A DNA stretch of 64,000 nt from a virus. Below the pieces are notes generated by a model. It had not been told where the DNA came from, made no database searches, and saw only the letters and a program-made list of their open reading frames with translations. Below are positions 3,005 through 49,514 of the stretch, piece by piece (position 1 is the first letter of the stretch; each line of letters begins with the position of its first letter). A program made the translations under genes and the position numbers. Location of the stretch: the IMG/VR virus record IMGVR_UViG_3300033978_000480, positions 62,001 through 126,000 of that record. One strand, written 5' to 3'.

Positions 3005-3078
3005 GACCCCTTAGCTCAGCTGGTTAGAGCATCGGACTTTTAATCCGTTGGTCCTCGGTTCGAATCCGAGAGGGGTCA
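3005..3078 (+). tRNA. tRNA-Lys(TTT)
   Basis: A 74-nt cloverleaf: 7-bp acceptor GACCCCT/AGGGGTC, D arm with GCTC...GAGC, anticodon stem TCGGA/TCCGT around loop CTTTTAA (anticodon TTT), T arm with TTCGAAT, discriminator A. No CCA is encoded. Confidence 0.95.
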
Positions 3079-3118
3079 CTGTTTGGGGGTTCGATTGTTT
3101 CACACAAGGATGAGTGAA

Positions 3119-3319
3119 ATGAATTGGGTAGTTATGCTTCTTATGTCGATCTTAATGCCAGTTGTGCAGCCGACTCTGCAAAATGGAGTACAGAAAATGT
3201 CGGCTAAGATTCAGCAGGTTTCCCAACCAAGCCCTTATATTACGTACCACGAAGGGCGCTGGTGGAAGTTAGAGAACGGTCAGTGGTACGTCTGGCAGGA
3301 GAACAAAAATGCCAATTAG
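3119..3319 (+). CDS. Small membrane-anchored protein
   Basis: 66 residues from ATG 3119, chosen over upstream ATGs because AAGGA lies 8 bases before it. An N-terminal hydrophobic segment (WVVMLLMSILMPVV) is followed by a short polar domain rich in aromatic residues (HEGRWWKLENGQWYVW). A single-pass or secreted small protein of unknown function. Overlaps the next gene by 11 bases. Confidence 0.6.
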   Translation: MNWVVMLLMSILMPVVQPTLQNGVQKMSAKIQQVSQPSPYITYHEGRWWKLENGQWYVWQENKNAN

Positions 3320-3590
3320 TGCGCCGCTGTTTAATCTATATTTCACAGGTGAGTACGACAAGATTCCGACTCGTATGCAGACGGCCCTTACGCGATACGT
3401 CACCGACCGCGTGGCTCCCGGTAACTTCCTGCAAGCGGTCATTAAGAACGACCTGCGCGACGCCTGTGGCCGCGCAGATAGTGAGAATCTGCCGCTGTTA
3501 CCCCTGTACGTTAAATGGCTTTACAACGTCGCTCCGGGCGGCTGTTGGGGTAGCCTAGACAACTACAAGGCGTGGATGGCTGGTGAGTAA
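3309..3590 (+). CDS. Conserved small phage protein of unknown function
   Basis: 93 residues. The stretch GNFLQAVIKNDLRDACGRAD followed by a C-terminal NVAPGGCWGS resembles a small protein found in many unrelated tailed phages (PPGSFL.AVL.NDL...GRAD.....CWGS pattern), whose function is not known to me. Helical and probably cytoplasmic. It sits between tRNA genes in the accessory region. Confidence 0.8.
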   Translation: MPISAPLFNLYFTGEYDKIPTRMQTALTRYVTDRVAPGNFLQAVIKNDLRDACGRADSENLPLLPLYVKWLYNVAPGGCWGSLDNYKAWMAGE

Positions 3591-3620
3591 TCTATAAGCC
3601 TTTTTGCGTAAAAAGTTGCC

Positions 3621-3693
3621 GGGATCGTAGCCCAATGGCAGAGGCAAAGGACTTAAAATCCTTCAAGTGTGGGTTCGAGTCCCACCGATCCTA
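3621..3693 (+). tRNA. tRNA-Leu(TAA) with a short variable loop
   Basis: Acceptor GGGATCG/CGATCCT (terminal G-T), anticodon stem AAGGA/TCCTT around CTTAAAA (anticodon TAA), T arm GTGGG-TTCGAGT-CCCAC, discriminator A. Only five bases (CAAGT) separate the anticodon and T stems, whereas bacterial tRNA-Leu normally carries a long class II variable arm. 73 nt, no CCA encoded. A second Leu tRNA at 5304 has the same feature. Confidence 0.88.
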
Positions 3694-3716
3694 ATGGTTG
3701 ATCAAAAGGAGTTTTC

Positions 3717-4067
3717 ATGCCACAAGACACGGTTAAATACAAACCGGTTTGTTGCTACCAGTGCGGAGAAACGTTTCGGTCGTATACGTTCAAAGACGTG
3801 TACGACATGCGCATTGACGGCGTGATTCACAAAGTGCCCGTATACGCTGTCCCGTGCCGGCGTTGCGACGCCTGCGACATCGCGATAACGGACGCTGGTT
3901 CCGATGAGGCCGTGCAGTGGTCGTACAAAAAGTACCTCAACGAGCACGGATTAAACACGCCATGGCTGCGTTTCCGCCGCTGGATTCGTCGCCGTTGCCG
4001 AATCGCGTGCGACCGGTATAACTGGTACCGGCTGCGATTCGATAAATGGCGTGGCAAATATTCGTAG
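3717..4067 (+). CDS. YgiT/MqsA-like zinc-ribbon protein
   Basis: 116 residues, ATG with AAGGAG upstream. CCYQCG near residue 12 and CRRCDAC near residue 48 flank a strand pattern containing V.....V.V..V.C..C, as in the YgiT-type zinc finger of MqsA antitoxins. No toxin partner or HTH is visible, and residues 75-116 are strongly basic with many Arg and Trp/Tyr, suggesting nucleic-acid binding. Lies between tRNA-Leu and tRNA-Val. Confidence 0.65.
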   Translation: MPQDTVKYKPVCCYQCGETFRSYTFKDVYDMRIDGVIHKVPVYAVPCRRCDACDIAITDAGSDEAVQWSYKKYLNEHGLNTPWLRFRRWIRRRCRIACDRYNWYRLRFDKWRGKYS

Positions 4068-4073
4068 CAACGT

Positions 4074-4147
4074 AGGCGCATAGCTCAATTGGTCAGAGCA
4101 CCTGCTTTACACGCAGGGGGTTAGGGGTTCGAGTCCCTTTGCGCCTA
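4074..4147 (+). tRNA. tRNA-Val(TAC)
   Basis: 74-nt cloverleaf: acceptor AGGCGCA/TGCGCCT, D arm GCTC...GAGC, anticodon stem CCTGC/GCAGG around TTTACAC (anticodon TAC), T arm with TTCGAGT, discriminator A. No CCA encoded. Confidence 0.93.
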
Positions 4148-4211
4148 TTGCCCGGTGTGGGGCGTATTCGACAACAGCCGCGCACACCCGCGGTGTATTC
4201 ACGGAGGATTT

Positions 4212-4580
4212 ATGATCCGCATTTTCATGTGCCTGTGTCTGGTTGCGTCTGCTCTCACGGTTGAGGCGGCTCCCCGACGACGATATACCTACAACACGAC
4301 ACCGGCAGCCTCGCCAGCGCGTGTGTCTGGGTATACGTCCACCTCCTCTATGCCGACGGGTAATACCGGTTCGGCACAGGGTGTGGCTGAAATACAGGCT
4401 TCGCGCGGCTACGTGGGCCACTTCGGTGGCAACAGTGGTTACGAGGGTTGCGGCTCCGGTTCGACGCCAGAGCAAGCCCTAAACAACTGCTGCTATTCCA
4501 ATAGCGGCATGGCAGTTGTGGATCAGGGCGTAGCCTGTGGCCGTAATGGCCGTTGGTACGCTTGCAAGCGGTACCGGTAA
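4212..4580 (+). CDS. Small secreted Cys-rich protein
   Basis: 122 residues from ATG 4212, chosen because GGAGG precedes it and a signal peptide follows (MIRIFMCLCLVASALTVEA, cleavage near AA-PRRR). The middle is Ser/Thr/Pro/Gly-rich linker. The C-terminal 55 residues form a compact Gly/Asn domain with five or six Cys (EGCG, NNCC, GVACG, WYACK), probably disulfide-bonded in the periplasm. Function unknown. Confidence 0.7.
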   Translation: MIRIFMCLCLVASALTVEAAPRRRYTYNTTPAASPARVSGYTSTSSMPTGNTGSAQGVAEIQASRGYVGHFGGNSGYEGCGSGSTPEQALNNCCYSNSGMAVVDQGVACGRNGRWYACKRYR

Positions 4581-4592
4581 TACTGGCTAATC

Positions 4593-4706
4593 GGCGGGCG
4601 CTGGAGGAAGCTCAAGCCTCTGGCGCCCGCCCCGCGGCCCGCGGAAACCGGTTGGCAAGCGAGTCTTATTAACTCGAAACGCGGGGTTCGACTCCTCGGC
4701 GGGCTA
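4593..4706 (+). tRNA. tRNA-like element, possible tRNA-Ile(TAT), preceded by an interfering hairpin
   Basis: The 3' half is tRNA-like: anticodon stem CGAGT/ACTCG (4660-4676) around CTTATTA (anticodon TAT), five-base variable loop, T arm CGGGG-TTCGACT-CCTCG, and GCGGGCT+A at 4699-4706. That 3' strand pairs with GGCCCGC at 4636-4642, giving a 71-nt body, but no normal D stem can be drawn in 4643-4659. Directly upstream a 9-bp hairpin (4593-4601 with 4623-4631) repeats the sequence TCGGCGGGC of the acceptor 3' strand and could compete with acceptor pairing. It may be a decaying tRNA, a tRNA with an unusual D arm, or a regulatory mimic. Confidence 0.45.
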
Positions 4707-4746
4707 TTGTTTGTTCTGTTTGTTATCGACTTTTATAGGAGTTAAC

Positions 4747-4908
4747 ATGCGCTACAAGAACGTAACGGCTGATGGTTCTTTTTTCGCCATTGTCAAATGG
4801 GCAGAAACCAACAACGCGCATTACGACACGCGCGTTATAAATGGTCGGATACAGATTGGCATGTCGCCATATCACTGGCGTCGTGCTGAATATCAAGGTG
4901 CAGCATGA
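4747..4908 (+). CDS. Hypothetical protein, 53 aa
   Basis: 53 residues from ATG 4747, supported by AGGAG 7 bases upstream. A short mixed alpha/beta sequence with basic and aromatic residues; no motif recognised. Ends in ATGA overlap with the next gene, so the two are coupled. Confidence 0.6.
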   Translation: MRYKNVTADGSFFAIVKWAETNNAHYDTRVINGRIQIGMSPYHWRRAEYQGAA

Positions 4909-5090
4909 CACTTGAACGTGCGGCCGAGCTAGTTTCAGCGCTCCGCGTAGCTGAACCAAACTCATTAGCTGCGCCTGATTTGTTCTCTCACTTTGTGGAT
5001 TATTTCAATCTGCAGGGAGAAAAAAAACTAACGCAATTTGCAGAGCTGTGCGGTTTTCTTATCGCTTGCGATGTTAGTCGCGTTGGTTGA
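4905..5090 (+). CDS. Hypothetical helical protein, 61 aa
   Basis: 61 residues. Starts inside the last codons of the previous gene (ATGA). Predominantly helical, with no domain recognised. Followed four bases later by tRNA-Glu. Confidence 0.6.
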   Translation: MTLERAAELVSALRVAEPNSLAAPDLFSHFVDYFNLQGEKKLTQFAELCGFLIACDVSRVG

Positions 5091-5093
5091 ACG

Positions 5094-5166
5094 GGCCCCA
5101 TCGTCTAGAGGCCTAGGACACCACCCTTTCACGGTGGATACCGGGGTTCGAATCCCCGTGGGGTCA
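5094..5166 (+). tRNA. tRNA-Glu(TTC)
   Basis: 73-nt cloverleaf closely following bacterial tRNA-Glu: acceptor GGCCCCA/TGGGGTC, D arm CGTCTAGAGGCCTAGG, anticodon stem CCACC/GGTGG around CTTTCAC (anticodon TTC), T arm CGGGG-TTCGAAT-CCCCG, discriminator A. No CCA encoded. Confidence 0.95.
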
Positions 5167-5303
5167 TTGATGAGTAAAACCATTGAACTGTTCCGGCTGA
5201 TCCCCGGCAGGAGGTAGTGAGGTTTTAAGTTCGATTTCCCGGTATGCCTATCCACGTGGCTCGTATATCGGAAGCGACCCCTAATCGACACTCATCAATT
5301 TTT
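5167..5303 (+). ncRNA. Structured RNA A between two tRNAs
   Basis: A 137-base gap holds no convincing gene. Its ends pair perfectly: TTGATGAGT at 5167-5175 with ACTCATCAA at 5290-5298 (9 bp), followed directly by TTTTT, like a closing stem ending at a transcript terminus. Inside, TCG-A-TTTCC (5231-5239) pairs with GGAAGCGA (5271-5278) with one bulge and encloses the palindrome CCACGTGG. A 15-codon ORF from 5170 is too short to credit. No known RNA family recognised. Confidence 0.5.
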
Positions 5304-5377
5304 AACTCGGTAGCCCAATTGGCAGAGGCGGTAGACTTAGGATCTACTTGTTGTGGGTTCGACTCCCACCCGGGTTA
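5304..5377 (+). tRNA. tRNA-Leu(TAG) with a short variable loop
   Basis: 74-nt cloverleaf: acceptor AACTCGG/CCGGGTT, anticodon stem GTAGA/TCTAC around CTTAGGA (anticodon TAG), variable loop TTGTT, T arm GTGGG-TTCGACT-CCCAC, discriminator A. Like the Leu(TAA) gene at 3621 it lacks the long variable arm usual for bacterial leucine tRNAs. The two share D- and T-arm sequence, suggesting duplication. No CCA encoded. Confidence 0.88.
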
Positions 5378-5567
5378 TTGTCTCGGCAGCGTGTGTACAG
5401 CGCTGCGAAATGCAGGGGGAAGTTAGTCCTCCTTAATTCGTTTGTGGGAGGGTAGCAAAGGTATTGATATCTATGGCCGGGCGCATCGGCCCGGCCGCCA
5501 AATAGATAACAATATGCCCGATAGGACCACGTCCCTGCGGCGAGACTTTTTCATCTAGGAGAGAATC
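5378..5567 (+). ncRNA. Structured RNA B (no gene seen)
   Basis: This 190-base gap is rich in perfect stems: GCAGCG/CGCTGC (5387-5406), GGCCGGGC/GCCCGGCC (5475-5496), and an outer pair GCAGGG (5412-5417) with CCCTGC (5533-5538) followed by CGGCGAGACTTTTT. It also holds the sequence TTGATATCTA near 5462, seen again in other intergenic gaps. The final 20 bases carry the ribosome site (AGGAGAG) of the gene at 5568. Confidence 0.45.
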
Positions 5568-5950: not shown

Positions 5951-6292
5951 GGGGGCGTACTGGTATCGACGTATAGACGGAAACACACATTGCATTCCGT
6001 GGTTGATCGAGAGGCCACGTTAATACTCGATTAAATGTTAATTGGCACTTTCAACAGTGTCCCCGCTCTCGCTGCCTGAGCAGTGATCGGGTGAGGCGCG
6101 TGACCTCATCGCCCATCACGCTGGCCGACTGGAAGAAGTCTGACAGGCTGGACAGACAGCCAAAGATGGTGGTAGCCCACCTGACGCCGATAATCGGCTG
6201 GCTTTGTTCATTGTGTAAGCAACAATGAGACATGAATGTAGACGTGTGTGTGGAAACTATTACGGACGCGGGTTCGACTCCCGCCGCCTCCA
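5951..6292 (+). ncRNA. ssrA: tmRNA (phage-encoded ssrA)
   Basis: The two ends form the tRNA-like domain: 5' GGGGGCG pairs with 3' CGCCTCC, and the 3' end GGACGCGGGTTCGACTCCCG is nearly identical to the T arm of enterobacterial tmRNA. A tag reading frame runs from GGC 6044 to TGA 6077-6079 and encodes GTFNSVPALAA, ending in the ALAA degradation signal. Stable helices follow (for example around 6083-6122), as in tmRNA pseudoknot regions. It would rescue ribosomes stalled on broken phage or host mRNA and tag the products. The resume codon (GGC, Gly) is inferred from the frame and the usual tag length. CCA is not encoded beyond the discriminator. Confidence 0.92.
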
Positions 6293-17631: not shown

Positions 17632-18474
17632 ATGGACGCGCGCGAATTCTTTGCCCTACTTTTCCGCCACGTGATTCTTATTCTAGCCGGCGCTCATGTA
17701 GCGCTGGCCGGCACGCGGGACCCCAACACGCCAGACGAAAAGTACGTCGAGTTTGGCAAGCAGTTTCCGTCTGTGCTGCGCATCCGGGCAAATATCATTG
17801 ACCCCGAAAGTAAGTACCCCTACCAGTATGGCTCTGCAGTGGCTATTCGGCCGCACTGGATTCTTACGGCAGCGCATGTGTTAGCCGGCGCTGAGAACCC
17901 CGTGGCGATTAAAGACGGCGACAAGAAGTTCGCGCTTGGCCCTGTGTTCGTCCATAAAGACTTTGAAGAAGAGACTGTAGGCTTTCACGACATCGCATTG
18001 CTGTACTCGCCCGAAGATTTTGAGCTAAAGTTTTACACGCCGCTGTATACAGACAAAGATGAAGTTGGCAAGGCTGTGACGATTGCCGGCTATGGTTTCT
18101 ACGGGACGTTTCATACGGGCGGCAAACAAATAGATAGCAATAAGCGCGCCGGGCATAACAAAATAGACAGCGCTGAACGCGCGGTTCTTTTATGCAGCCC
18201 CAGTGTGACAAACCGCATGCCGCTAGAATTCATGATTGCTTCTGGGGATTCCGGTGGTGGCTTATTTATCGGCAACGAATTAGCCGGGATTAACTCTTTT
18301 CTCATGGCTACTGACAAAAAACCCGACGGAAGTTACGGCGATGACGCGGCTTTTACCCGTGTGAGTTTGTACGCGGATTGGGTAGAATCACAGATCGCGG
18401 CGTATGAATTAAAGATAGCCGGCAAAGGCACGCTCGCGGCAGATCTAGATTTAATCTCCCCACCTGAAGAGTGA
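17632..18474 (+). CDS. Exported trypsin-like serine protease (S1 fold)
   Basis: 280 residues with an N-terminal export signal (FRHVILILAGAHVALAGT). The catalytic triad is visible in order: His in WILTAAHVL (near residue 80), Asp in FHDIALL (near 120) and Ser in ASGDSGGGLF (near 206), with the usual GDSGG oxyanion loop. It should cleave proteins in the periplasm or outside the cell. A free-standing S1 protease is uncommon in phages. It could act at lysis, on envelope proteins, or be carried by the virion. Followed at once by a small membrane protein. Confidence 0.9.
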   Translation: MDAREFFALLFRHVILILAGAHVALAGTRDPNTPDEKYVEFGKQFPSVLRIRANIIDPESKYPYQYGSAVAIRPHWILTAAHVLAGAENPVAIKDGDKKFALGPVFVHKDFEEETVGFHDIALLYSPEDFELKFYTPLYTDKDEVGKAVTIAGYGFYGTFHTGGKQIDSNKRAGHNKIDSAERAVLLCSPSVTNRMPLEFMIASGDSGGGLFIGNELAGINSFLMATDKKPDGSYGDDAAFTRVSLYADWVESQIAAYELKIAGKGTLAADLDLISPPEE

Positions 18475-35843: not shown

Positions 35844-36215
35844 ATGGCTACAAAGAAAAGTGTTGAAACAGTACGTGAAGAACTGCGGGTGTTAAACAGC
35901 GCTGTTGACGATGTAAACGTTGACAACGGTAACTGGCTAACGCCGGAATTCTGGACAATGGCCTTCGGCGCGATCACGAATCTCGTGGCTGTTGGCGTCC
36001 TCATTGGCTGGATTGACTCGTCGCAGGCTGAGTCGCTGACCAAGGCTATAACGGCGATCGTTGGTGCCACGCAAATTGTCGTGCTGAATAGCGCGTTGAT
36101 TTGGAAGTATCTGTCTGGCCGCACTGAGCTGCGTGCCCAGATGGTTGACGCCCGCTATCGGTACATGGAAGCAGTGGCTGTTGAGAAAATGCGTTCAGAC
36201 CGCGCGAGCAGCTAA
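35844..36215 (+). CDS. Holin-like two-helix membrane protein
   Basis: 123 residues, AAGGAG upstream. A charged N-terminus, helices at about 39-56 and 65-85 (AFGAITNLVAVGVLIGWI, AITAIVGATQIVVLNSALIW) and a basic tail. Size and topology resemble phage holins or small pore proteins. It is the first gene after a promoter, close to several exported proteases. A second holin candidate is at 32562. Confidence 0.6.
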   Translation: MATKKSVETVREELRVLNSAVDDVNVDNGNWLTPEFWTMAFGAITNLVAVGVLIGWIDSSQAESLTKAITAIVGATQIVVLNSALIWKYLSGRTELRAQMVDARYRYMEAVAVEKMRSDRASS

Positions 36216-36218
36216 CAC

Positions 36219-36623
36219 ATGACCACGGCAGAACTGCAAAAACGAATTGATGCATCCGCAGCGTTGTCGGACTTGAAGCGCAAACTCACGGACGAGATTG
36301 CGCTTCAAGCTGACAATAGCTTTCAGTTTGATCCGTTTCTGGTTGTAATGATTATCTCTGTGCTTGTGCAGGTGATTATTCATTGCCGCGAGCAGAATTC
36401 AGACGATGCGATTCAACAAAGCATGCGAGAACTGCGTACGCTTCCGCCCCGTAAATTAATGCGACTACGACGCCGCTTAAACAATTTATGGCGCGAGCAC
36501 TGCGCTAAGACAGGTACAGAATACACACCCGATAACCCAATCGTTGGGGCTGTGTATCGGTTAAGTGATACAATTGATGACGCTGCCGCAGCCGGCCTCG
36601 TGGAGTTGGCTGCCGCGCGTTAA
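36219..36623 (+). CDS. Hypothetical protein with one membrane helix
   Basis: 134 residues. Charged helices flank one hydrophobic segment (FLVVMIISVLVQVIIHC, residues about 40-56). The C-terminal half is basic (RKLMRLRRRLNNLWREH). It starts 3 bases after the previous stop. No family recognised. Confidence 0.6.
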   Translation: MTTAELQKRIDASAALSDLKRKLTDEIALQADNSFQFDPFLVVMIISVLVQVIIHCREQNSDDAIQQSMRELRTLPPRKLMRLRRRLNNLWREHCAKTGTEYTPDNPIVGAVYRLSDTIDDAAAAGLVELAAAR

Positions 36624-36644: not shown

Positions 36645-37469
36645 ATGGCAAGGAAGCCAACCGCACAATCAGAAGCTCATGTTATTCCTGTCGGCGAGAT
36701 CCTCAAGCGTTTACACGCGCTCGGGTATTTCGGAGACAAGACACTGGCGCAGGTCAAAAAGATCAAAGGCGTCGAGTTACAGAAGGCTGTACGGGCGTTT
36801 CAGGAATTTAACGGCCTGAGCCCTACGGGCACAGTTGGCCCGAAGACCGCGCACCGGATCAACCGGCGTCGCTGCGGCCTACCTGATTTTAATATCACGG
36901 CACCCGGCGGCGACCCGTGCAAATGGCCAATGCCCGGCGTGACGTACTACCACGATGTGCATCTGCCCGGTTTAACAGACTCGCAGGTAGCCGAAGCGTA
37001 CGACATTGCATTCAGCCAGTGGGCCGAAGTGTGCAATCTGAATCCGTCGCGTGTTGATGCCGCGAACAAAGCTAATATTTATGCTCGTTCTGGCGTCGGT
37101 AAGAAGTACGGTTTAGATAACAAAGGCGGCACGTTGGCGTGGAGCGAGTTACCGTGCGGTGTTGCTGAAAACATCCAGCTTGATCAGATGTTTGACGAGG
37201 CAGAAGACTGGTCTTTTAATATGGCCGTCGCTGTCATCTGCCACGAGCTTGGTCACGCATTGGGCCTGCCGCATTTAAATTCCGGCAATCTTATGGCGCC
37301 GTATTACGACCCAAACGTCACAAAACCGCAAGATGGTGACGTTGTAGAGATAGTGAAGTTATACGGTAAACGAACAGCGGCGTATCCCATTACGCAAGAT
37401 GCCGGATTACAAATTAACGGTACGCTTACAATTAATGGTCGTCCGTATGTTCTTGTGCCGCAGACGTGA
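36645..37469 (+). CDS. Matrixin (MMP-like) zinc protease with peptidoglycan-binding-like domain and cysteine switch
   Basis: 274 residues from ATG 36645 (AAGGA 8 bases upstream). Residues about 17-70 are a PG-binding-1-like three-helix domain (LHALGYFGDKTLAQVKK...AVRAFQEFNGLSPTG.VGPKT). Residues 76-81 read RCGLPD, matching the PRCGxPD cysteine switch that keeps animal matrix metalloproteinases latent, with Cys77 as zinc-blocking residue. The catalytic domain has HELGHALGLPH (His200, Glu201, His204, His210) and a Met-turn NLMAPYY (Met217). It should be a zymogen activated after release, cutting envelope or matrix proteins. No export signal is evident. Confidence 0.9.
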   Translation: MARKPTAQSEAHVIPVGEILKRLHALGYFGDKTLAQVKKIKGVELQKAVRAFQEFNGLSPTGTVGPKTAHRINRRRCGLPDFNITAPGGDPCKWPMPGVTYYHDVHLPGLTDSQVAEAYDIAFSQWAEVCNLNPSRVDAANKANIYARSGVGKKYGLDNKGGTLAWSELPCGVAENIQLDQMFDEAEDWSFNMAVAVICHELGHALGLPHLNSGNLMAPYYDPNVTKPQDGDVVEIVKLYGKRTAAYPITQDAGLQINGTLTINGRPYVLVPQT

Positions 37470-37504: not shown

Positions 37505-37786
37505 ATGACTATGAATACGTTTCAGCTTGTTTTAGCCGGTCTTTTTCTTGTAGCGCTTGTTGCGACCTATCGTGACACGCTGCTTGGTTTTTTAAAGAAG
37601 CGCGGCGTAGCCGCCGTATCGGGCGTGCAGGAATCGATCGCTGTCCCGCTCGTCAACGACATCTTGGCGGTGACCAAGCTGCGTGACAAACTTTCTGCAG
37701 AAGGCTGCACGGCGGGCGTTGATGCCTGCACAGCTTTGCTGCGCGTGATTGTCGAGTATGAACAGCCGTCAAAGGGTGTTGTATGA
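37505..37786 (+). CDS. Single-pass membrane protein, 93 aa
   Basis: 93 residues, GGAGA upstream of the ATG. Residues about 5-25 are hydrophobic (TFQLVLAGLFLVALVATYRD), followed by a soluble helical part with two Cys. Overlaps the next gene (ATGA). Function unknown; placed between two protease genes. Confidence 0.6.
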   Translation: MTMNTFQLVLAGLFLVALVATYRDTLLGFLKKRGVAAVSGVQESIAVPLVNDILAVTKLRDKLSAEGCTAGVDACTALLRVIVEYEQPSKGVV

Positions 37787-38238
37787 AAAAAGTAGTTTGG
37801 ATTCTCGGTTTACTGCTGCTGCTGTCGTTTGTGTTTCCAAACGGCCTACCCGGTTTGCACACACCGACCGACACAGACGTAACGCCCGTTGTGCCCGCCG
37901 GGCCAACTGACGCGAAAATTGTTGAAGTATTAACTGGGTCTGACGCCGCTGATCGCGCGCGCATTGCGGGTGTGTACGCTGGTTTAATCCACGTGCTAAA
38001 TCGCGACGGCGGAAAGAAACTGATCACAACGACTGAAAAGTTTGCGATGCTGCAGGCCAATACACTCGGCGTAGCTATTGATACGCCGGGCGAGTATCCG
38101 GGGCTCGACACCGCAATTGAGAGCGTGTTTTTAACGGCTGTGGGTTCTGATGACGTCGTACCCGTTACGCCGGAACTGGTCACAAAGTTGGTCGATGCTT
38201 GTGCTGTTATTGTCAATTCGGCTACTACGGCTAAATAA
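37783..38238 (+). CDS. Exported or membrane-anchored protein, 151 aa
   Basis: 151 residues beginning with a signal-anchor (MKKVVWILGLLLLLSFVFP). The remainder is soluble and helical, without motif. The ATG overlaps the previous TGA. Likely periplasmic side. Coupled with neighbours in an operon of envelope-directed proteins. Confidence 0.6.
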   Translation: MKKVVWILGLLLLLSFVFPNGLPGLHTPTDTDVTPVVPAGPTDAKIVEVLTGSDAADRARIAGVYAGLIHVLNRDGGKKLITTTEKFAMLQANTLGVAIDTPGEYPGLDTAIESVFLTAVGSDDVVPVTPELVTKLVDACAVIVNSATTAK

Positions 38239-38241
38239 CAA

Positions 38242-38697
38242 ATGCCGCTCACGCTGTCTGTACTGTTATTGTGTTTGATCGTTTGGCTGTTGGCCGTGAT
38301 GTACGCCCACCTGAACATGGTGGACTATCCATCGCGGCCGCAGGGATTAGAGTTGGTACAAATTAGGAGTAATATCGCTATGGCTGATGTTTTAACGTAT
38401 CGTGTTTCTGCCGCCGCCCCGGTTGACGCTGACGTGGTCTCGCGCGTTGTTACGCTCAAGATCAACGGCGAAGACAAGGGCGCTCGGACGTTTGAGGGCG
38501 CTGTAACTGATCTCGGCACCGTCGCCGCGCCGCAAGGTGCGGAAGTCGAGCTGTCGCTGGTCGACGTAGATGACGCGGGCAACATTTCGCAGCCTGCTAC
38601 ATATACGTTCACGGCTGTTGATACCCTGCCGCCGGCCGTTCCCGGCGCGTTCAATGTCACGCTGGTCAGCGAAGCTCCCGAAGAGCCCGCTGTCTGA
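38242..38697 (+). CDS. Beta-sandwich protein with alternative membrane-anchored form
   Basis: The full frame has 151 residues with an N-terminal hydrophobic helix (LTLSVLLLCLIVWLLAVMYA) but no ribosome site. ATG 38380, inside the frame, has AGGAG 10 bases upstream and gives a 105-residue soluble form whose strands (VVTLKINGEDKGA, AEVELSLVDVDDAGNIS) look like an Ig/Fn3-type domain. Either two products are made or the internal start is the real one. A domain like this would suit a virion surface or tail part. Confidence 0.55.
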   Translation: MPLTLSVLLLCLIVWLLAVMYAHLNMVDYPSRPQGLELVQIRSNIAMADVLTYRVSAAAPVDADVVSRVVTLKINGEDKGARTFEGAVTDLGTVAAPQGAEVELSLVDVDDAGNISQPATYTFTAVDTLPPAVPGAFNVTLVSEAPEEPAV

Positions 38698-38718: not shown

Positions 38719-39744
38719 ATGGCCAATACAGAGAACTTCTTTGAAAACGTTTATGACGTTGTGGCAGCGTACGAAGGCGGCTACGTGGGGGCTTACAGCA
38801 ACCCCGAAGCAGCTGAAGCGCTCCGCGATCAGATTAAAGCCGCCGGTGGTATTCCCGACGGCGCCATGGCATGCTCGACATATAAACTTGAAGAAACTGG
38901 CAAGGGCAGGTTAAGTTTGCCGTTTCTTGAGATCCTGAAGCTCTACCCGGACGCCCTGCCGGGTGGAGCGCAGGGTCGCGGTGACTGTGTAAGTTGGTCG
39001 ACGCGAAACGCCTGTCTCGGCACGATGTGCTGCGAGATTACAAGCGGTGTTCCCGACCCCAACAGCAACCGGCTTGAGGGTGCGCCGGAAGTAAGTGACA
39101 CCGCGCGGCTTAACGGCGTGTTAAGCACTGAGGCGTTTTACAATTGGCGCCGACACGGTGGCGACGGCTGGAGCTGCGCTGAAGCCGCGCAAGTAGCCTT
39201 AAACGATTCTGGTCTCTGGCTTCGAAAGAAGTACGACGAGATCGATGTTGACTTTACGCAGTACAGTTCGCGGAACGCCGGTATTTACGGGAGCCGAACG
39301 CCCCCGGAATCATGGCGCGCGATCGGTAAAGATCACCGCGTGCAGACAATCACAGAAGTAGAAGAGTATGAAGCGCTGCGCGATCTTTTAGCCAACGGTT
39401 ACTGTATAAGTAGCTGCGGTAGTGAAGGATTTTCAGATAAACGAGATGAACATGGCGTCAGTCGTCGTCGTGGTAGTTGGGCCCACGCGCTCGCATATCT
39501 CGCTGTAGACGACCGGCCTGAAACGATTAAGTTATATGGTGAGCCGCTTGTATTAGTTCAAAACTCGTGGGGCGCGTGGAATGACGGAAGTCGGCGTATT
39601 TTAGGCACTACGATCGATATTCCTGTTGGTGCTTTCTGGGCGCTCTGGTCAGATATTAAAAACCGCTATATGGTAGCTATCTCTGGCGTAAACGGTTGGC
39701 CGCCGAAGAAGCTCAAGAGTTATGGCGCGCTCGGTAACATATAA
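38719..39744 (+). CDS. Papain-like (C1-type) cysteine peptidase
   Basis: 341 residues, GGAGTC upstream. Gln85 and Cys90 in GGAQGRGDCVSWSTRN, His256 in GSWAHALAYL and Asn282 in VLVQNSWGAWNDG give the complete Q-C-H-N set of papain-fold enzymes, including the NSWG signature. No pro-region or signal peptide is visible. Phage C1 peptidases are rare. It could be virion-borne, or cut host proteins in the cell. Near the matrixin gene, forming a protease-rich stretch. Confidence 0.85.
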   Translation: MANTENFFENVYDVVAAYEGGYVGAYSNPEAAEALRDQIKAAGGIPDGAMACSTYKLEETGKGRLSLPFLEILKLYPDALPGGAQGRGDCVSWSTRNACLGTMCCEITSGVPDPNSNRLEGAPEVSDTARLNGVLSTEAFYNWRRHGGDGWSCAEAAQVALNDSGLWLRKKYDEIDVDFTQYSSRNAGIYGSRTPPESWRAIGKDHRVQTITEVEEYEALRDLLANGYCISSCGSEGFSDKRDEHGVSRRRGSWAHALAYLAVDDRPETIKLYGEPLVLVQNSWGAWNDGSRRILGTTIDIPVGAFWALWSDIKNRYMVAISGVNGWPPKKLKSYGALGNI

Positions 39745-39780: not shown

Positions 39781-40125
39781 ATGTTTGAATGGCTTGTTCT
39801 CGCAGTTCCGGTGACATATGCCGAACCACCCAAGAAAGACTATATCGGGGTGGTCGCTGCAGAGGCTGCTTATGCTTCTTTGCTTCCTGACGCGGCGCCT
39901 GTAAAGCCACTCGTAGACACAAAAGACTGCAAGCGCTGCAACGGCACAGGTCGGATCCGCACGGGCGACGACATTAACTGGACGGACTGCCCGGACTGTG
40001 AACCGAAAGACGGCTCTATCAAAGAATCGGGCCCGCTGCCGTCCATGCGTTTACAGGTTAAGCCCCTGCCGCCGGTTAAAACGAGTGATTGCGAAACCGG
40101 TCGTTGTCCAGCTCCTCGCACGTAA
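39781..40125 (+). CDS. Exported DnaJ-type zinc-finger protein
   Basis: 114 residues. A short hydrophobic N-terminus (LVLAVPVTYAEPP) may be a signal peptide. CKRCNGTGRI...TDCPDC (residues about 50-75) is a CxxCxGxG zinc motif like that of DnaJ. The rest is Pro-rich. TTGCAATAA and AAAGGAC precede the ATG. Function unknown. Confidence 0.6.
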   Translation: MFEWLVLAVPVTYAEPPKKDYIGVVAAEAAYASLLPDAAPVKPLVDTKDCKRCNGTGRIRTGDDINWTDCPDCEPKDGSIKESGPLPSMRLQVKPLPPVKTSDCETGRCPAPRT

Positions 40126-42232: not shown

Positions 42233-45200
42233 ATGCCGACCCCTGAACTGCCCCCGTTAAAGCAACCCGATTTTGCTTCTGCGCCGCCGTTAGCGCCCGC
42301 AGCGCCAGCGCCTCTTCCGCCGCCAGCCATGCGCACGTTTGGCGATATTGGATCGATGCGGCAGAACATATTTGAGCAGGCACGTACGAGCGCGCAATCG
42401 TTGCGGCCTCTGCAGAACGATCTTTATACGCTGCAGCTGCAAGACGTAGATTATTCCGGCCCAGAAAGTTTCACACGGGCTGATCAGAAGAAAGCTGTCC
42501 TCTCTAGAGGCACGCTTGCTCGCCGATTGCAGGGTACGTGGACGCTCGTTGATAACAAAACCGGCGAGTCGGTTGGGCAGAAGCGCGCTACGATTGCACA
42601 CGTGCCGTATCTCACAGACTCTGGCACATTCGTAAACGGCGGCGTTGAATATACGCTAGCGCATCAGATGCGGTTAAAAGCCGGTGTGTTTACGCGCGAA
42701 AAAGACAACGGCGAGATTGAAGCGCATGTGAACACGCTGCCCGGTAAAGGCCGCTCGCATCGTTACTTCCTCGACCCCAAAACCGGCGTATTCAAAATCA
42801 GCATCGGGCAGGCGCAGATCCCACTCATGCCGATGCTCAAAAGCATGGGCGTCTCTGAGCAAGATATTCGCAAGGCGTGGGGCAACGAGATTACCGCCGT
42901 CAACATGGAAAAAGGCGACGCGGGCACAATGGATAAATTGTATGCCCGCATCGTAAATAAACAGGTGGCGGGAGCTGACGCGCTGGCCAAAGCAAAGGCT
43001 GTGGCTGAAGAGTTTGCCAAGACAGAGTTAGATCCAGAAGTAACTAGACGAACACTCGGCGGCGAGCACAAGAACCTTACGCCTGACACCATTCTGGCGA
43101 TTACAAAAAAACTTATCGCCGTCAATCGTCGCGAAGCCGAATCAGACGACCGCGACAACATGGTGTTTCAGTCAGTGGTCGGTCCAGAAGATTTAATATC
43201 AGAACGGTTTACAAAAGATCGGTCTGCGTTAAATAAATTACTCTGGCGGGCCACAGCGAAGAAGTCTATCGACCACATACCCAGCGGCGTATTCGATAAG
43301 GCTATTTCAGCTGCGCTAATCGGCTCTGGTCTCGGCTCTAGTCTTGAAGAAATCAACCCGGCCGAGATTTTCGACCACCAGACGCGCGTAACCCGCATGG
43401 GCGAGGGCGGCATCTCGTCACTAGACGCTGTTCCGGCCGAATCGCGTAGTGTGCAGCCGTCGCATCTCGGGTTCATCGATTATCTGCGGACGCCTGAGTC
43501 CGGAAAAGTCGGCGTTGATATGCGTTTTGCTCGTGGCGCAATGAAGGGCGCTGACGGCAAGGTGTATACGCCGGTTGTAAACATGCAGACCGGCGAAACA
43601 GAATATAAAACACCGCAAGAGCTGTCAGACACACCGCTAGTGTTCCCCGGCGAAGAGAACAACAAGTTGCCGGTTGTCGCTGCGCTCGTCAACGGAAAGA
43701 TGAAGTACGTTGACCGAAAAGAAGCGCAATACAGCTTGCCCAACATGGACTCGACGTTCTCCAGCCTTACAAACATGGTACCGATGAAGGCCATGATCAA
43801 AGGCCAGCGCGTCATCATGGGTTCGCGCATGTTTACTCAAGCTTTGCCGCTTGTAGGAGCGCAAGCGCCGTTAGTGCAGTCGGCCAAGTTTGATGACCCC
43901 AACATGTCGCACGAAGACGAAATGGGAGAAAAGCTTGGCGCCACCCGGGCAACCACTCGCGCGCAGGTAGTCGATGTAACGGCTGACGGTATTGTGCTGC
44001 GCGACAAAGACGGGAACAAGAAAACAGTCGAGTTGTATAACGAGATGCCGTACAACCGAAAAACGTTCTTGCATCAAACGCCGATGGTAAAACCCGGCGA
44101 TGTTGTGCAACCCGGGCAGCTGCTGGCTAAGTCAAACTTCACAGATGATCAGGGTAGCGCGGCACTCGGGCTTAACATGCGTGTAGCTTATGTGCCGTTC
44201 CGCGGTAAAAACTACGAAGACGCCATAGTGATATCAGAATCGGCGGCAAAACGGTTGACGTCTGAGCACATGTATCAGCACGAAGCAGAGTGGGATGAAA
44301 ATACACACGTCGGGAAAAAGGCATTCACAAGTCTGTTTCCGACAGAGTACGACAAGAAAATGCTGGACAATTTTGACGATCAGGGCGCAATTAAAAAAGG
44401 CGCTGTCGTTAATTTTGGCGACCCCCTTGTTCTCGTCGCTAAGAAAAAAGATACGGTGTACGGCAAGGTGCACCGCGGTCGTGCCGGTAGTTTCACCAAC
44501 GACACTGTTACGTGGGACCATCACGCGCCCGGTATTGTAACCGACGTTATGCACACCAAAAAAGGTGTCAGCGTTGTTGTAAAAAATCAGGCGCAGATGG
44601 ACGTTGGCGATAAGCTCACCGGTCGCTTTGGTGATAAGGGCGTCATTGCCGATATCATTCCAGACGACCAGATGCCGCAAGACAAAGAAGGCAATCCGTA
44701 CGAAGTGCTTGTCAGTCCGCTGGGTCTTATCAGCCGCGTGAATCCGGCGCAGGTTATAGAAGCAGCACTCGGTAAAGTTGCAGCAAAAACAGGCAAACCA
44801 TTCAAAATCAAAGACTTCGATGACCAGAATGATTTAATTGAATTTGCGCAGAAAGAACTCGACAAGAACGGGCTTTCAGACACAGAAGATTTAACAGATC
44901 CTGAGACTGGCCGAAAAATTCCGGGTGTTTTAACCGGAACGCGTTTCTTCATGAAACTGCACCATACAAGTGAGTCTAAGGCGCAGGGTCGGGCCATGGG
45001 GGCTTATACCGCCGAAGGCACGCCAGCAAAAGGTGGCAGTGAGGGCGCGAAGCGTGTTGGCATGCTCGACCTCGGTGCTTTGTTATCGCACGGCGCTGGT
45101 AAAGTTATCCGCGACGCCAAAATGGTACGCGGGCAGGCCAATCCAGAATACTGGTCGCAGTTCATGGCTGGCTATACGCCGCCGCTGCCGAAAGTTCCGC

Positions 45201-46669
45201 ATGTCTATGAAAAATTTGTTGGGCAGCTGAAAGCGTCTGGCATTAACGTCGTCCGCAGCGGCACGAAAACAAACGTCATGGCGTTGACTGACAAAGACGT
45301 GGATCAGCTTGCCGGTCCAAGAGAGATTCAAAACTCTGAGACTGTTGACTGGAAAGGCCGGTTGAAACCAATTGCTGGCGGCCTGTTTGACGAGAGCTTA
45401 ACAGGTGGTCACGGCGGCAATCGGTGGGGGAAGATAACCCTTCACGAGCCGATGCCGAATCCAGTCATGGAAGATCCGATCCGGCGTGTTCTCGGGCTAA
45501 CAGAAAAGAAATTCCGCGGTATCCTCGCCGGCCAAGACAAGATTAACGATCAAACCGGTCCCAAAGCTATTCAGACGGCGCTGGCCAATATTAATCTGCC
45601 GAAAGCGATTGAGCAGGCGCGTGAAGATATCAAATCCGGCCGTAAGACACTGCGCGACGCCGCTGTTCGTAGGCTTGGGTTTTTGAAAAGCGCGGAGCAG
45701 GCCGGTGTGCATCCGAAGGACTGGATGCTGACAAAAGTTCCGGTCCTGCCGCCGCTATTTCGGCCGGTCAGCACCATGGGGCCGAAGAAGTTGCCGCTCG
45801 TTGCCGACGCGAACTACTTGTACAAAGAATTGCTCGACGCCAATGACTCGTTAAAAGAAGCGTCTGGTGCGCTTGCAGAGTACGGCGACGAGCGCCTTGG
45901 TGTATATGACGCCATGAAAGGCGTGACCGGTCTTGGTGAGCCGCAGCAGCCGAAAAACGCTGAACGCAACGTAAAGGGATTTTTACGGCATATTTTCGGC
46001 AACTCGCCCAAGTACGGTACGGTACAGCGCAAGTTACTCAGCTCGACGGTTGATCTTGTCGGCCGCGCTGTTATTACGCCGAACCCAGACCTAGACATGG
46101 ACGAGGTTGCCCTGCCAGAAGAGAAGGCGTGGGATATCTATAAGCCTTTTGTGGTGCGCGATTTAGTTCGCCGCGGCCTTCCCAGAATGCAGGCACTTGA
46201 TGCCGTAGAGAAAAAAACGAAAGAAGCGGCAGCCGTGCTTGAGCGGCAAATGAGTTCGCGCCCGATTGTTATTAACCGCGCGCCCGTGCTGCATCGTTAC
46301 GGCATGATGGCTTTCTACCCGCGGCTGACCAAGAACAAAGTCATGGAAGTCAACCCGGTTATTACCAAGGGTTTCGGCGCTGACTTTGACGGCGACGCGA
46401 TGCAATACCACGTACCCAGCACAGAAGACGCCGCTAAAGAAGCCGTGGACAAAATGCTACCCAGCAAAAATTTATTTGCGGCATCCACGTTTAAAGCGCA
46501 CTACGTACCGAACAAAGATTATCAAACTGGTTTGTACGTCGCGTCCAGTAGAATTAATAACAAAGCAAAACCCCGGGTATTCCGAAACAAGCAGGACGCT
46601 ATGCAGGCGTACAGGCGTGGTGAAATAGAGGTAGACACCCCGGTTCATATTGTGGAAGATACTAAGTAA
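42233..46669 (+). CDS. RNA polymerase beta subunit fused to the N-terminal half of beta'
   Basis: 1478 residues. The beta part contains NYEDAIVISE (near residue 659) and GDKLTGRFGDKGVIADIIP (near 790), matching the beta clamp/Mg2+-site regions, then a beta C-terminus with GAKRVGMLDLGAL. From about residue 1034 beta' begins (SETVDWKGRLKPIAGGLFDE), lacking the N-terminal zinc finger, and runs through RPIVINRAPVLHR to the catalytic loop GADFDGDAM (Asp1384, 1386 and 1388 binding Mg2+), where the usual Asn is Gly. The rest of beta' is at 47634. No alpha, omega or sigma gene is in the window. Such an enzyme would transcribe phage genes independently of the host core. Confidence 0.93.
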   Translation: MPTPELPPLKQPDFASAPPLAPAAPAPLPPPAMRTFGDIGSMRQNIFEQARTSAQSLRPLQNDLYTLQLQDVDYSGPESFTRADQKKAVLSRGTLARRLQGTWTLVDNKTGESVGQKRATIAHVPYLTDSGTFVNGGVEYTLAHQMRLKAGVFTREKDNGEIEAHVNTLPGKGRSHRYFLDPKTGVFKISIGQAQIPLMPMLKSMGVSEQDIRKAWGNEITAVNMEKGDAGTMDKLYARIVNKQVAGADALAKAKAVAEEFAKTELDPEVTRRTLGGEHKNLTPDTILAITKKLIAVNRREAESDDRDNMVFQSVVGPEDLISERFTKDRSALNKLLWRATAKKSIDHIPSGVFDKAISAALIGSGLGSSLEEINPAEIFDHQTRVTRMGEGGISSLDAVPAESRSVQPSHLGFIDYLRTPESGKVGVDMRFARGAMKGADGKVYTPVVNMQTGETEYKTPQELSDTPLVFPGEENNKLPVVAALVNGKMKYVDRKEAQYSLPNMDSTFSSLTNMVPMKAMIKGQRVIMGSRMFTQALPLVGAQAPLVQSAKFDDPNMSHEDEMGEKLGATRATTRAQVVDVTADGIVLRDKDGNKKTVELYNEMPYNRKTFLHQTPMVKPGDVVQPGQLLAKSNFTDDQGSAALGLNMRVAYVPFRGKNYEDAIVISESAAKRLTSEHMYQHEAEWDENTHVGKKAFTSLFPTEYDKKMLDNFDDQGAIKKGAVVNFGDPLVLVAKKKDTVYGKVHRGRAGSFTNDTVTWDHHAPGIVTDVMHTKKGVSVVVKNQAQMDVGDKLTGRFGDKGVIADIIPDDQMPQDKEGNPYEVLVSPLGLISRVNPAQVIEAALGKVAAKTGKPFKIKDFDDQNDLIEFAQKELDKNGLSDTEDLTDPETGRKIPGVLTGTRFFMKLHHTSESKAQGRAMGAYTAEGTPAKGGSEGAKRVGMLDLGALLSHGAGKVIRDAKMVRGQANPEYWSQFMAGYTPPLPKVPHVYEKFVGQLKASGINVVRSGTKTNVMALTDKDVDQLAGPREIQNSETVDWKGRLKPIAGGLFDESLTGGHGGNRWGKITLHEPMPNPVMEDPIRRVLGLTEKKFRGILAGQDKINDQTGPKAIQTALANINLPKAIEQAREDIKSGRKTLRDAAVRRLGFLKSAEQAGVHPKDWMLTKVPVLPPLFRPVSTMGPKKLPLVADANYLYKELLDANDSLKEASGALAEYGDERLGVYDAMKGVTGLGEPQQPKNAERNVKGFLRHIFGNSPKYGTVQRKLLSSTVDLVGRAVITPNPDLDMDEVALPEEKAWDIYKPFVVRDLVRRGLPRMQALDAVEKKTKEAAAVLERQMSSRPIVINRAPVLHRYGMMAFYPRLTKNKVMEVNPVITKGFGADFDGDAMQYHVPSTEDAAKEAVDKMLPSKNLFAASTFKAHYVPNKDYQTGLYVASSRINNKAKPRVFRNKQDAMQAYRRGEIEVDTPVHIVEDTK

Positions 46670-47403: not shown

Positions 47404-47632
47404 AACGCAGCACCACTTACAGCCAACCGAGCAAAAGGCGCACAGCATCGTCGTGGAAGACGACGTTGGTAATCCGATCTTCGTCGCCATTCAAGTCGAC
47501 GAAGCCATCATTTACTCAACGCCCGGCGAAAAAGACTTCCACTCAATGCTGCGCGCTCTGGGTATTGAAAAAACGGTGGTTGTAGCCGACTTTAAACCTA
47601 AGCCGCTGCAGAATATTGTGCGGCCGATGTAA
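47393..47632 (+). CDS. Hypothetical protein, 79 aa
   Basis: 79 residues from ATG 47393, overlapping the previous gene by 11 bases. Beta-rich (SIVVEDDVGNPIFVAIQVDEAII) and compact. Ends one base before the start of the beta' C-terminal gene, so it may be translationally coupled to it. No family recognised; a small polymerase partner is a possibility, unproven. Confidence 0.6.
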   Translation: MLVKTQHHLQPTEQKAHSIVVEDDVGNPIFVAIQVDEAIIYSTPGEKDFHSMLRALGIEKTVVVADFKPKPLQNIVRPM

Positions 47633-47633
47633 C

Positions 47634-49514
47634 ATGCTTAAAACCACGCTCGGACAAGTCCTGATTAACGAAGCGCTCCCGCCGGAGATGCGCGACTATG
47701 ACCGCGTGCTCACTAAAAAAAGCATGGGCGCGCTGGCGACTGAGCTAGCCAAGTCGCATCCCGAAAAATATCGGGAGGCAATGAAAAAACTGCACGACGT
47801 CGGCAAAGACGCTGGTTACAGCAGCGGCGGGCTTTCTTTCAGTTTGAAGCACATTCGCCCGACGCTGGCCGTGAAAGCCGCGCAGATTCGCACGCAAAAT
47901 GCCATGCGCGAGATTCTGTCCGACAAGCGTTTAGACAGCAAAACGCGGCAAATTAAACTGCTAGAGTTAGCTGCAAACACGCAAAAAGAGTTGCTAGACA
48001 AGGTCTACAAAGAAGCCGAGAGCCAAGACAATCCGCTGGTGCATCAGATTGCTGGCGCTGGTGTCGGCAATAAATATCAATTGAATTCTTTGATCGGGGC
48101 TGACATGCAGTACCTCGATCACCGCGGCGAGCCGATTCCAATTCCAGTGCTACGCGGCTACGGGCAAGGGTTACGCCCCGTTGAATATTTTGCCGGCGCT
48201 TTCGGTACCCGCAAAGGTGTTATCGACCTTAAGACGGCCACCGCCGACGCTGGGTTTTACGGTAAACAGCTGGCGCAGATGACGCACAGACTTTTAGTCA
48301 CCGCGGACGACGATGACGATACAGACGAAGAGCGCGCGGCATCTGCGTTAGAACGTGGCTACCCCACAGACGTCGATGACCCAGATAACGAGGGCTCACT
48401 GCTCTCTCGCCCAATCGGACCGTATAAACGCAACACGGTATTAACGCCGAAGATCCTGCGTGACATTAAGGACATGGGCGTTAAAGATATTTTAGTCCGT
48501 AGCCCGATTGTAGGGGGTCCAGCAGATGGCGGCGTATACGCGAAGGACGTTGGTTATCGCGAAAAAGGCCGTTTACCGCCGGCTGGAGATTATGTGGGCA
48601 TCGCCGCGGCCCAAGCGTTGTCTGAACCTGTCACACAAAGCCAGATCAGCTCGAAACACTCTGGCGGTGTCGGCGGCGCAGGCGCAATCTCTGGTTTTAA
48701 AGCGCTCAATGCCCTTGTGCAGGTGCCGAAAAAATATCCCGACGGCGCCGCGCATGCGCAAGCCGACGGCCGGGTGCAAGAAATCCGTCCGGCTCCGCAG
48801 GGCGGCCACTATGTGCAGATTAATGGGCAAGATCACTATGTTCCGACCGAGAGAGCATTATCAGTTAAAAAAGGCGATGATCTTGAAGCTGGCGACGTAC
48901 TATCTGACGGTATGCCCAACCCGTCAGAGATCGTAAAGCACAAAGGCATCGGCGAGGGTCGGCGTTATTTTGTGCAAGCCATGCGGCAGGTAATGGGCAA
49001 TAGCGGGATTACAGCTCACCGCCGAAACATTGAATTATTGTCGCGCGGCCTTGTAAACCATGTCCGGCTGACCGACGAATATGGCGATTACTCGCCGGAC
49101 GACATTGTGCCGTACTCTTCGTTAGAGCGAAATTGGACGCCGCGCGACGGAAGCGTGTCAGCGGCGCCGCAGACATTAACCGGGCACTATCTCGAAAAAC
49201 CGGTTTTACACTATTCAATCGGCACGAAGATCGGTAAAAACGTGCTAACGAACTTGAACAAATACGGCATTAAAAATATTCAAGCCCACAAAGAACCGCC
49301 GCCGTTTCAGCCGGAAATGGTGCGGGGTATGGCCAATATTTCAAATGACCCGGATTGGATGACGCGCATGCTTGGGTCGTACCAAGAAAAAGGTTTAATG
49401 AATAGCGTTCACCGCAACTTATCCAGCGACGCCGCCGGCAGCAGTTATGTGCCTGCTTTAGCGCAAGGTGAGCAGTTTGGCGTAACCGGCACGACAAGCG
49501 GGTGGAAGCCTTGA
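47634..49514 (+). CDS. RNA polymerase beta' C-terminal half
   Basis: 626 residues from ATG 47634. Before the trigger loop, LVRSPIVGGPADGGVYAKD corresponds to the beta' RSVLTC..R.GVCAKC zinc site, but all its Cys are lost. The bridge/trigger region is GIAAAQALSEPVTQ...SSKHSGG (near residues 322-345): the trigger-loop His is kept, whereas the Met and Arg of the usual TMRTFH are Ile and Ser. GITAHRRNIELLSRGL is the later conserved helix. Together with the 42233 gene it completes the two large subunits in about 2100 residues, well below bacterial size. Confidence 0.92.
   Translation: MLKTTLGQVLINEALPPEMRDYDRVLTKKSMGALATELAKSHPEKYREAMKKLHDVGKDAGYSSGGLSFSLKHIRPTLAVKAAQIRTQNAMREILSDKRLDSKTRQIKLLELAANTQKELLDKVYKEAESQDNPLVHQIAGAGVGNKYQLNSLIGADMQYLDHRGEPIPIPVLRGYGQGLRPVEYFAGAFGTRKGVIDLKTATADAGFYGKQLAQMTHRLLVTADDDDDTDEERAASALERGYPTDVDDPDNEGSLLSRPIGPYKRNTVLTPKILRDIKDMGVKDILVRSPIVGGPADGGVYAKDVGYREKGRLPPAGDYVGIAAAQALSEPVTQSQISSKHSGGVGGAGAISGFKALNALVQVPKKYPDGAAHAQADGRVQEIRPAPQGGHYVQINGQDHYVPTERALSVKKGDDLEAGDVLSDGMPNPSEIVKHKGIGEGRRYFVQAMRQVMGNSGITAHRRNIELLSRGLVNHVRLTDEYGDYSPDDIVPYSSLERNWTPRDGSVSAAPQTLTGHYLEKPVLHYSIGTKIGKNVLTNLNKYGIKNIQAHKEPPPFQPEMVRGMANISNDPDWMTRMLGSYQEKGLMNSVHRNLSSDAAGSSYVPALAQGEQFGVTGTTSGWKP

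Follow-up and report, generated by a model that had tools for sequence, protein, structure and literature searches.

Latency by a cysteine switch within a full propeptide has been described in mammalian matrix metalloproteinases (MMPs) and is thought likely in those of other animals, plants and fungi, whereas karilysin, a bacterial MMP, carries a propeptide of 14 residues and an aspartate switch (both as given in PMC6949598). In Listeria, the phage-derived metzincin Mtz sensitises cells to phage lysis and to lysins (PMC8235301); neither ‘cysteine switch’ nor ‘matrix metalloproteinase’ is used as a term in the main text of that paper. A 2025 study of MMP transfer likewise has neither ‘phage’ nor ‘virus’ in its main text, with ‘viral’ appearing only in the title of a reference (PMC12587646), and among papers in the open PMC literature, covered mostly at the level of listings, we found none that describes a cysteine-switch MMP from a phage.

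Here we describe a gene of an uncultured phage whose product has the layout of an animal MMP zymogen, together with its relatives, its gene neighbourhood and the roles that these suggest. The window, i.e., the whole stretch of DNA that was analysed, is 64,000 bases long and spans positions 62001-126000 of an uncultured virus record of 157,526 bases.

An MMP-type zymogen gene

An earlier note on this DNA had claimed that one of its genes encodes a protein in the order of animal MMP zymogens, and we found the PG_binding_1 domain, the RCGLPD switch, the HExxHxxGxxH motif and the Met-turn all present in the 274-aa product (Table 1). The ORF runs from an ATG to a stop codon at the coordinates given there, with an AAGGA about 8 bases upstream of the ATG. 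Pfam placed PG_binding_1 at residues 16-69 (E 1.6e-10, above the curated cut-off) and Peptidase_M10 at residues 94-241 (E 1.6e-18), with RRCGLPD between the two. In the comparison with M10 profiles that the note had proposed, Peptidase_M10 scored 67.6 bits against a curated cut-off of 24, and it was matched at E 0.01 by 36/36 members of alignment A3. In a phmmer search human proMMP-1 was the top PDB-sequence match (8.6e-17), in a single alignment through the switch, and a 36-row family profile matched the same protein at E 1.2e-44 over profile positions 14-250, again across the switch. Both alignments set C77 against the switch cysteine of proMMP-1.

Residues 1-75 taken alone gave weak matches only, to bacterial PG-binding-type proteins (best E 0.12), and the two PHROG endolysin matches below 1e-3 cover residues 6-77 only. 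As the domain occupies the place of an MMP prodomain, the name PG_binding_1 alone is no evidence of peptidoglycan binding. A peptidoglycan-hydrolase catalytic domain was not found in the protease, M10 and PG_binding_1 being its only Pfam matches above cut-off, nor was a secretory signal peptide (the maximum 19-residue hydropathy, KD19, was 1.18, with no hydrophobic segment). That the protein is an MMP-type zymogen is in our assessment close to certain, and sequence and predicted model together make it very probable that its latency would be imposed by the cysteine switch.

Table 1 Coordinates of the protease, its parts and neighbouring or related genes in the window
Feature	Coordinates	Strand	Basis
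Trypsin-like serine protease, hydrophobic N-terminus, GDSGG, candidate activator	17632..18474	+	Pfam scan, hydropathy, record survey
Holin-like protein, two hydrophobic segments	35844..36215	+	weak Phage_holin_10 and weak PHROG holin matches
Small protein, one central hydrophobic segment, directly 5' of the protease gene	36219..36623	+	synteny, hydropathy
ProMMP-like zymogen gene (274 aa)	36645..37469	+	Pfam, phmmer, family profile, model superposition
Prodomain region, PG_binding_1 residues 16-69	36690..36851	+	Pfam; superposed jointly with catalytic domain on proMMPs
Cysteine switch R76-C77-G-L-P-D81	36870..36887	+	sequence, conservation rows
Cys92, covaries with Cys171	36918..36920	+	18/18 distant rows with residues at both sites
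Cys171, covaries with Cys92	37155..37157	+	distant-row comparison
Catalytic zinc motif H200-E-L-G-H204-A-L-G-L-P-H210	37242..37274	+	sequence, conservation rows
Met217 of Met-turn (NLMAP)	37293..37295	+	sequence, conservation rows
Small N-terminally anchored protein, spanin-like by place only	37505..37786	+	synteny, hydropathy
Small N-terminally anchored or exported protein	37783..38238	+	synteny, hydropathy
Small N-terminally anchored or exported protein	38242..38697	+	synteny, hydropathy
Papain-like cysteine protease candidate, 341 aa, Q85/C90, H256, N282-S-W	38719..39744	+	motif from alignments
Small Cys-rich protein (CxxCxGxG...CxxC)	39781..40125	+	sequence; weak Pfam matches, all sub-cut-off

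Predicted structure

An initial model from 21 close sequences (pLDDT 64) left the switch disordered and was replaced by a second, built from 36 diverse rows, with a mean pLDDT of 82.9 and a pTM of 0.74. When the second model was compared with known structures by VIA-align, proMMP-2, -9, -1, -10 and -3 ranked at the top: 1eak_B aligned over 226 residues at 3.1 A (Z 25.5), and proMMP-1 (1su3_B) over 207 residues at 2.1 A with residues 16-246 of the model (Z 24.8). Foldseek agreed on the proMMP superposition, and the karilysin structure 4r3v gave Z 20.7. Because a single superposition takes in both domains, the predicted model shows the prodomain in its zymogen position, packed against the catalytic domain in the way seen in proMMPs. 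The earlier note had named as a check a structure prediction with Cys77 facing the zinc. What held is the overall arrangement, with the model superposing on proMMP zymogens over both domains and C77 aligning with the switch cysteine of proMMP-1; the switch region itself is predicted at low pLDDT (mean 66 for residues 71-80 and 48 for residues 81-90, with residues 82-88 under 50).

Conservation and relatives

Successive scans of IMG/VR returned 29, 53 and then 67 loci, the largest contigs being 193-205 kb long. These syntenic contigs, together with a baseplate J gene in the flank of the window, bear out the note's view that the gene belongs to a phage, and uncultured phages of about 200 kb carry the protease as a core gene. 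To be counted in the sets of 51 close and 19 distant proteins used below, ORFs had to have at least 100 aa, E <=1e-12 and the HExGH motif, with one row per distinct C-terminal stretch; distant M10 proteins came from two pattern scans and from the ORFs of the loci found. We found RCGLPDF to be identical in 30/30 rows (29 loci and the window). Among 51 distinct close proteins C77 was present in 49/49 covering rows, and the switch cysteine was present in all covering rows of the 51 close and 19 distant proteins, given that two close and two distant rows are cut short of the switch and that the switch cysteine of L167 is alignment-dependent (another alignment places no cysteine there). The zinc motif and the methionine were kept in 51/51 close and 19/19 distant rows, all pre-selected for HExGH.

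Relatives that bear a switch were found in several further phage lineages, and also in phage-like elements of Planctomycetota. The switch reads PRCGCPD in four other phage contigs (L158, L173, L175 and L176), PRCGHPD in L169, PRCGVPD in L216 and ICGVPD in L223, with FCAYPD (L212) and RCMTPD (L193) as further variants; two Planctomycetota contigs have the CG-type variants VCGVAD (L031) and FCGVVE (L032). In a tree of 33 rows, which has several long branches and open forks and was used only for this point, the window lineage came out as a single group (support 95/92), separate from the six cellular M10 proteins of planctomycetes. At 1e-6 the family profile matched 23 of 199 Planctomycetota genomes, strongly only in G001 (9.1e-100); the next-best match (1.5e-19) covered the catalytic part only. 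Among 50,697 records of cultured phages, tblastn gave no match for the window protein or for the L031, L173 and L216 proteins, and neither the window DNA nor the papain-like protein matched cultured phages, so the host is not readable from any named phage.

Some M10 proteins have another build: in the viral contigs L165, L168, L174 and L157 they are short, their leader is either RR-type or hydrophobic, and they have a Cys-motif but lack the prodomain helices. Gln/Val-rich exported repeat proteins lie near the M10 genes of three elements (L169, L212 and L063).

A lost structural-zinc site and a covarying cysteine pair

We take the ligands of the structural zinc in the MMP S-loop to be His, Asp, His and His. 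In both the phmmer and the profile alignments the corresponding positions of proMMP-1 fall on V151, K153, W166 and M182 of the window protein, and none of the 51 close rows has His or Asp at any of the four. By contrast with these ligands, D158, D184 and E187, presumably the acids of the MMP calcium site, are kept in 51/51 close rows. Since the structural-zinc ligands are absent, the window protein is a variant and not a canonical MMP.

Two cysteines of the window protein, C92 and C171, were concordant in 18/18 distant rows with residues at both sites (6 with both cysteines, 12 with neither), L159 being set aside because of a gap; these rows represent 17 distinct genes, because L063 repeats the L058 gene (as L031) in truncated form. 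The pairs 92/130 and 92/199 were rejected, as they did not agree across the distant rows and C130 and C199 did not follow C92/C171. Judging from this covariation, C92 and C171 probably form a disulfide outside the cytoplasm, and the pair may stand in for the missing structural-zinc site: the bond would stiffen the loop that a second zinc holds in place in animal MMPs.

Gene neighbourhood and lysis genes

The holin-like gene and the small gene at 36219 adjoin the protease in 53/53 other loci (54 with L030, the window's own locus). Genes 37505 and 37783 are present in 52/53, the exception (L048) ending just after the M10 gene, and the papain-like gene, 1.25 kb downstream of the protease gene, in 50/53, where the three exceptions (L015, L024 and L048) are short of DNA. 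The Phage_holin_10 match of ORF 35844 (E 6.5e-4) is below the Pfam cut-off. As the 341-aa protein has no match in Pfam or, profile search included, in PDB, its candidate identity as a papain-like protease comes from motif and kin: a homologue with 40% identity lies beside the M10 gene of L158, the protein in the papain-like position of L173 matches a PDB cysteine protease at 2.1e-14, and six aligned proteins, that of L173 among them, share the Q/C/H/N residues in the order known from papain, including the NSW. In L216 two genes, one a small ORF and the other encoding a TM protein, lie between the M10 gene and a terminase-like gene (the terminase recognised by eye). A thioredoxin beside the M10 gene of L193 was not accepted, having the WCGPC motif and weak matches only.

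We found no peptidoglycan hydrolase among the Pfam matches of 78 flank ORFs, and none in the 25 families listed out of the 28 matched by the 64 window ORFs. In the relatives the search covered SLT, Phage_lysozyme and Amidase_2, each found in 0/15 records. M23 peptidase was rejected as a candidate: its matches were sub-cut-off in 15/15 records, with none above, and the pair in G000 lies inside RNA polymerase ORFs (43949-44185 and 48750-48902). PG_binding_1 occurs once per record in 17/19 records, as this protease gene in G000 and in an M10-sized frame of 276-328 aa in the others.

Animal proMMPs are opened by trypsin-like enzymes, and for this reason we regard the trypsin-like protease of the window as a candidate activator. 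It was found in 12/12 records of the window lineage and in 0/7 outside it; being absent from all seven, it is no general activator.

The window holds further phage genes. The phage RNA polymerase has its beta domains and the start of beta-prime in one 1478-aa ORF (42233-46669) and the later beta-prime part in a separate ORF (47616-49514). A phage-encoded tmRNA (5951-6292) carries the tag GTFNSVPALAA, and six tRNAs lie at 3005-5378 and 33055. Other window ORFs (alignment A6) match Volactin, a viral actin (1.3e-61), MpsC (1.9e-26), PhoH and a ferritin-like family. Collagen-repeat proteins, of which each related genome has many, are located at L258:15798-17969 (G000 ~53.3-55.5 kb).

Planctomycetota elements and the host

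In G001 and G002 terminase and head genes, assigned by PHROGs, surround the M10 gene, and G001 also has a portal gene. Homologues of the papain-like protein were found in 9/392 Planctomycetota genomes, and in G342, G124 and G336 the homologue is in the interval before the terminase, where G001 and G002 carry the M10 gene. The terminase is shared (47-50% identity) in all three of these papain-type elements, and the ATPase (43-47%), portal and head genes in two of them, L262 and L263. With an M10 or papain-like protease upstream of the terminase in all five elements, either protease can fill this gap; the window phage and L158 carry both, close together. Thioredoxin_7 was above cut-off in 3/3 papain-type elements, and the M10-type G001 has a cytochrome-like protein. 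The loci of phage-like elements with an M10 zymogen or a papain-like protease in this interval are L062-L065 and L262-L264.

The Planctomycetota elements suggest a planctomycete host and a role at the envelope or at exit. The host of the window phage is probably a planctomycete, a reading drawn from three Planctomycetota matches in a narrow-pattern scan; the presence of the papain-like family in 9/392 genomes does not, alone, fix the host.

Proposed role and alternatives

The reading that we prefer, and to which we give about even chances, is that the zymogen belongs to the lysis module and is a latent protease directed at the envelope, which a large tailed phage would use when infection ends. 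In the reducing cytoplasm of the host Cys77 would be a free thiol that ligates the catalytic zinc and silences the enzyme, and a silent zymogen could build up without harm to host or virions. Having no export signal, the protease would reach the envelope as an endolysin does, once the holin-like neighbour opens the inner membrane. There, the zinc would be freed either through oxidation of Cys77 or through cleavage of the propeptide, for which the protease itself, the phage's own exported trypsin-like protease and the papain-like neighbour are candidates. The enzyme would then cut envelope proteins and complete lysis. The zymogen is thus pictured as probably kept off inside the host and switched on at virus exit. 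The earlier note had proposed activation after lysis or during entry, against envelope proteins or biofilm matrix; gene context (the holin-like neighbour and the Planctomycetota elements) favours the envelope and lysis part of this proposal, and entry and matrix are weighed below.

Planctomycetes, once thought to be protein-walled, have lysozyme-sensitive peptidoglycan (PMC4432640), and the protease alone may therefore not lyse them. In a bolder version, which we hold to be doubtful, planctomycete phages would rely on a gated cascade of proteases, in place of the endolysin or in addition to it. The redox-sensitive switch of the MMP-type zymogen would open once the inner membrane fails, through the phage-encoded trypsin-like or papain-like protease or through oxidation, with thioredoxin-like or cytochrome-like redox proteins in the corresponding slot of related elements.

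Several other roles can be imagined for such a zymogen. It might travel with the virion, packaged or attached to the tail, stay off until contact and then breach a new host's protein layer. The absence of a signal peptide would suit such an entry protease, as would the position of the M10 gene directly after a Baseplate_J-type gene in L158 (by Pfam) and L173 (by eye). In the window record, however, the baseplate J gene is about 45 kb from the protease, it is the holin-like neighbour that is constant, and a structural domain is not attached to the protease; we consider entry unlikely. Proteolysis might instead serve to process the phage's own proteins, e.g., collagen-like fibres or other structural precursors, given that there are collagenases among animal MMPs and that collagen repeats were detected in 16/19 records of M10-bearing phages (19-31 matches in most window-lineage genomes). 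Against this, repeats were not found in 3/19 such records (two of them <70 kb) and were found in 4/9 large cultured phages taken as a control, a result for which we dropped the collagen link as support. Moreover, a cytoplasmic maturation enzyme should not need a thiol lock that the reducing cytoplasm holds closed, and we judge a processing role to be quite improbable.

A further candidate is an extracellular helper that lysis would set free to digest the matrix or slime protein of cells nearby; on biofilm matrix the analysis turned up evidence in neither direction. The MMP family does target extracellular proteins in animals, and parts of the cassette look exported, but we found no specific support for such a helper, and the conserved position on the holin side favours a cell-autonomous role; we hold the helper to be very unlikely.

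A zymogen that is a core gene of phages and has relatives in other phage lineages offers a possible path for the transfer of MMP zymogens from one microbe to another, as well as a simple system for the study of thiol-gated latency. If the lysis reading is true, phages can exit by cutting protein beside or instead of sugar, which is plausible for hosts whose walls have long been said to be rich in protein. If the protease cascade also exists, an animal-style proMMP activation cascade operates within a phage lysis programme.

Comparison with known systems

Viral MMPs are known from granulo-, nudi-, irido-, asco- and entomopoxviruses of insects, and these were among the fold matches to predicted viral models. 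They belong to animal viruses, whereas the window protein comes from a tailed-phage record with syntenic phage contigs, and its nearest cellular kin are Planctomycetota elements. Among phage proteins, two BFVD models of uncultured Caudovirales from metagenomes, A0A6J5RTD2 and A0A6J5P205, have an M10-like fold; they are titled ‘Uncharacterized protein’ and ‘Peptidase M10 metallopeptidase domain-containing protein’ and are likened to the window protein by fold, the alignment of A0A6J5RTD2 covering the greater part of the query (TMq 0.71, 300 columns). The Listeria Mtz resembles the window protease as a phage-associated metzincin that acts together with phage lysis, but it has a Sec signal and a TIMP-like partner lipoprotein, Tim, unlike the window protease (as reported in PMC8235301).

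Karilysin of Tannerella has the M10 catalytic domain in common with the window protein, which differs in its full prodomain and cysteine in place of the short propeptide and aspartate. The closest likeness is to the animal proMMP-1, -2, -3, -9 and -10 (matrixins, M10A), with which the window protein has in common the prodomain, the RCGxPD switch, HExxHxxGxxH, the Met-turn, the calcium-site acids D158/D184/E187 and the superposition of the whole zymogen. It differs from them in its phage setting, in lacking a signal peptide and a hemopexin domain, in the replacement of the four structural-zinc ligands and in the extra cysteines 92, 130, 171 and 199. The kind of protein is thus known; what is new is the setting, the lost zinc site with its covarying cysteine pair, and the slot in which one protease is exchanged for another.
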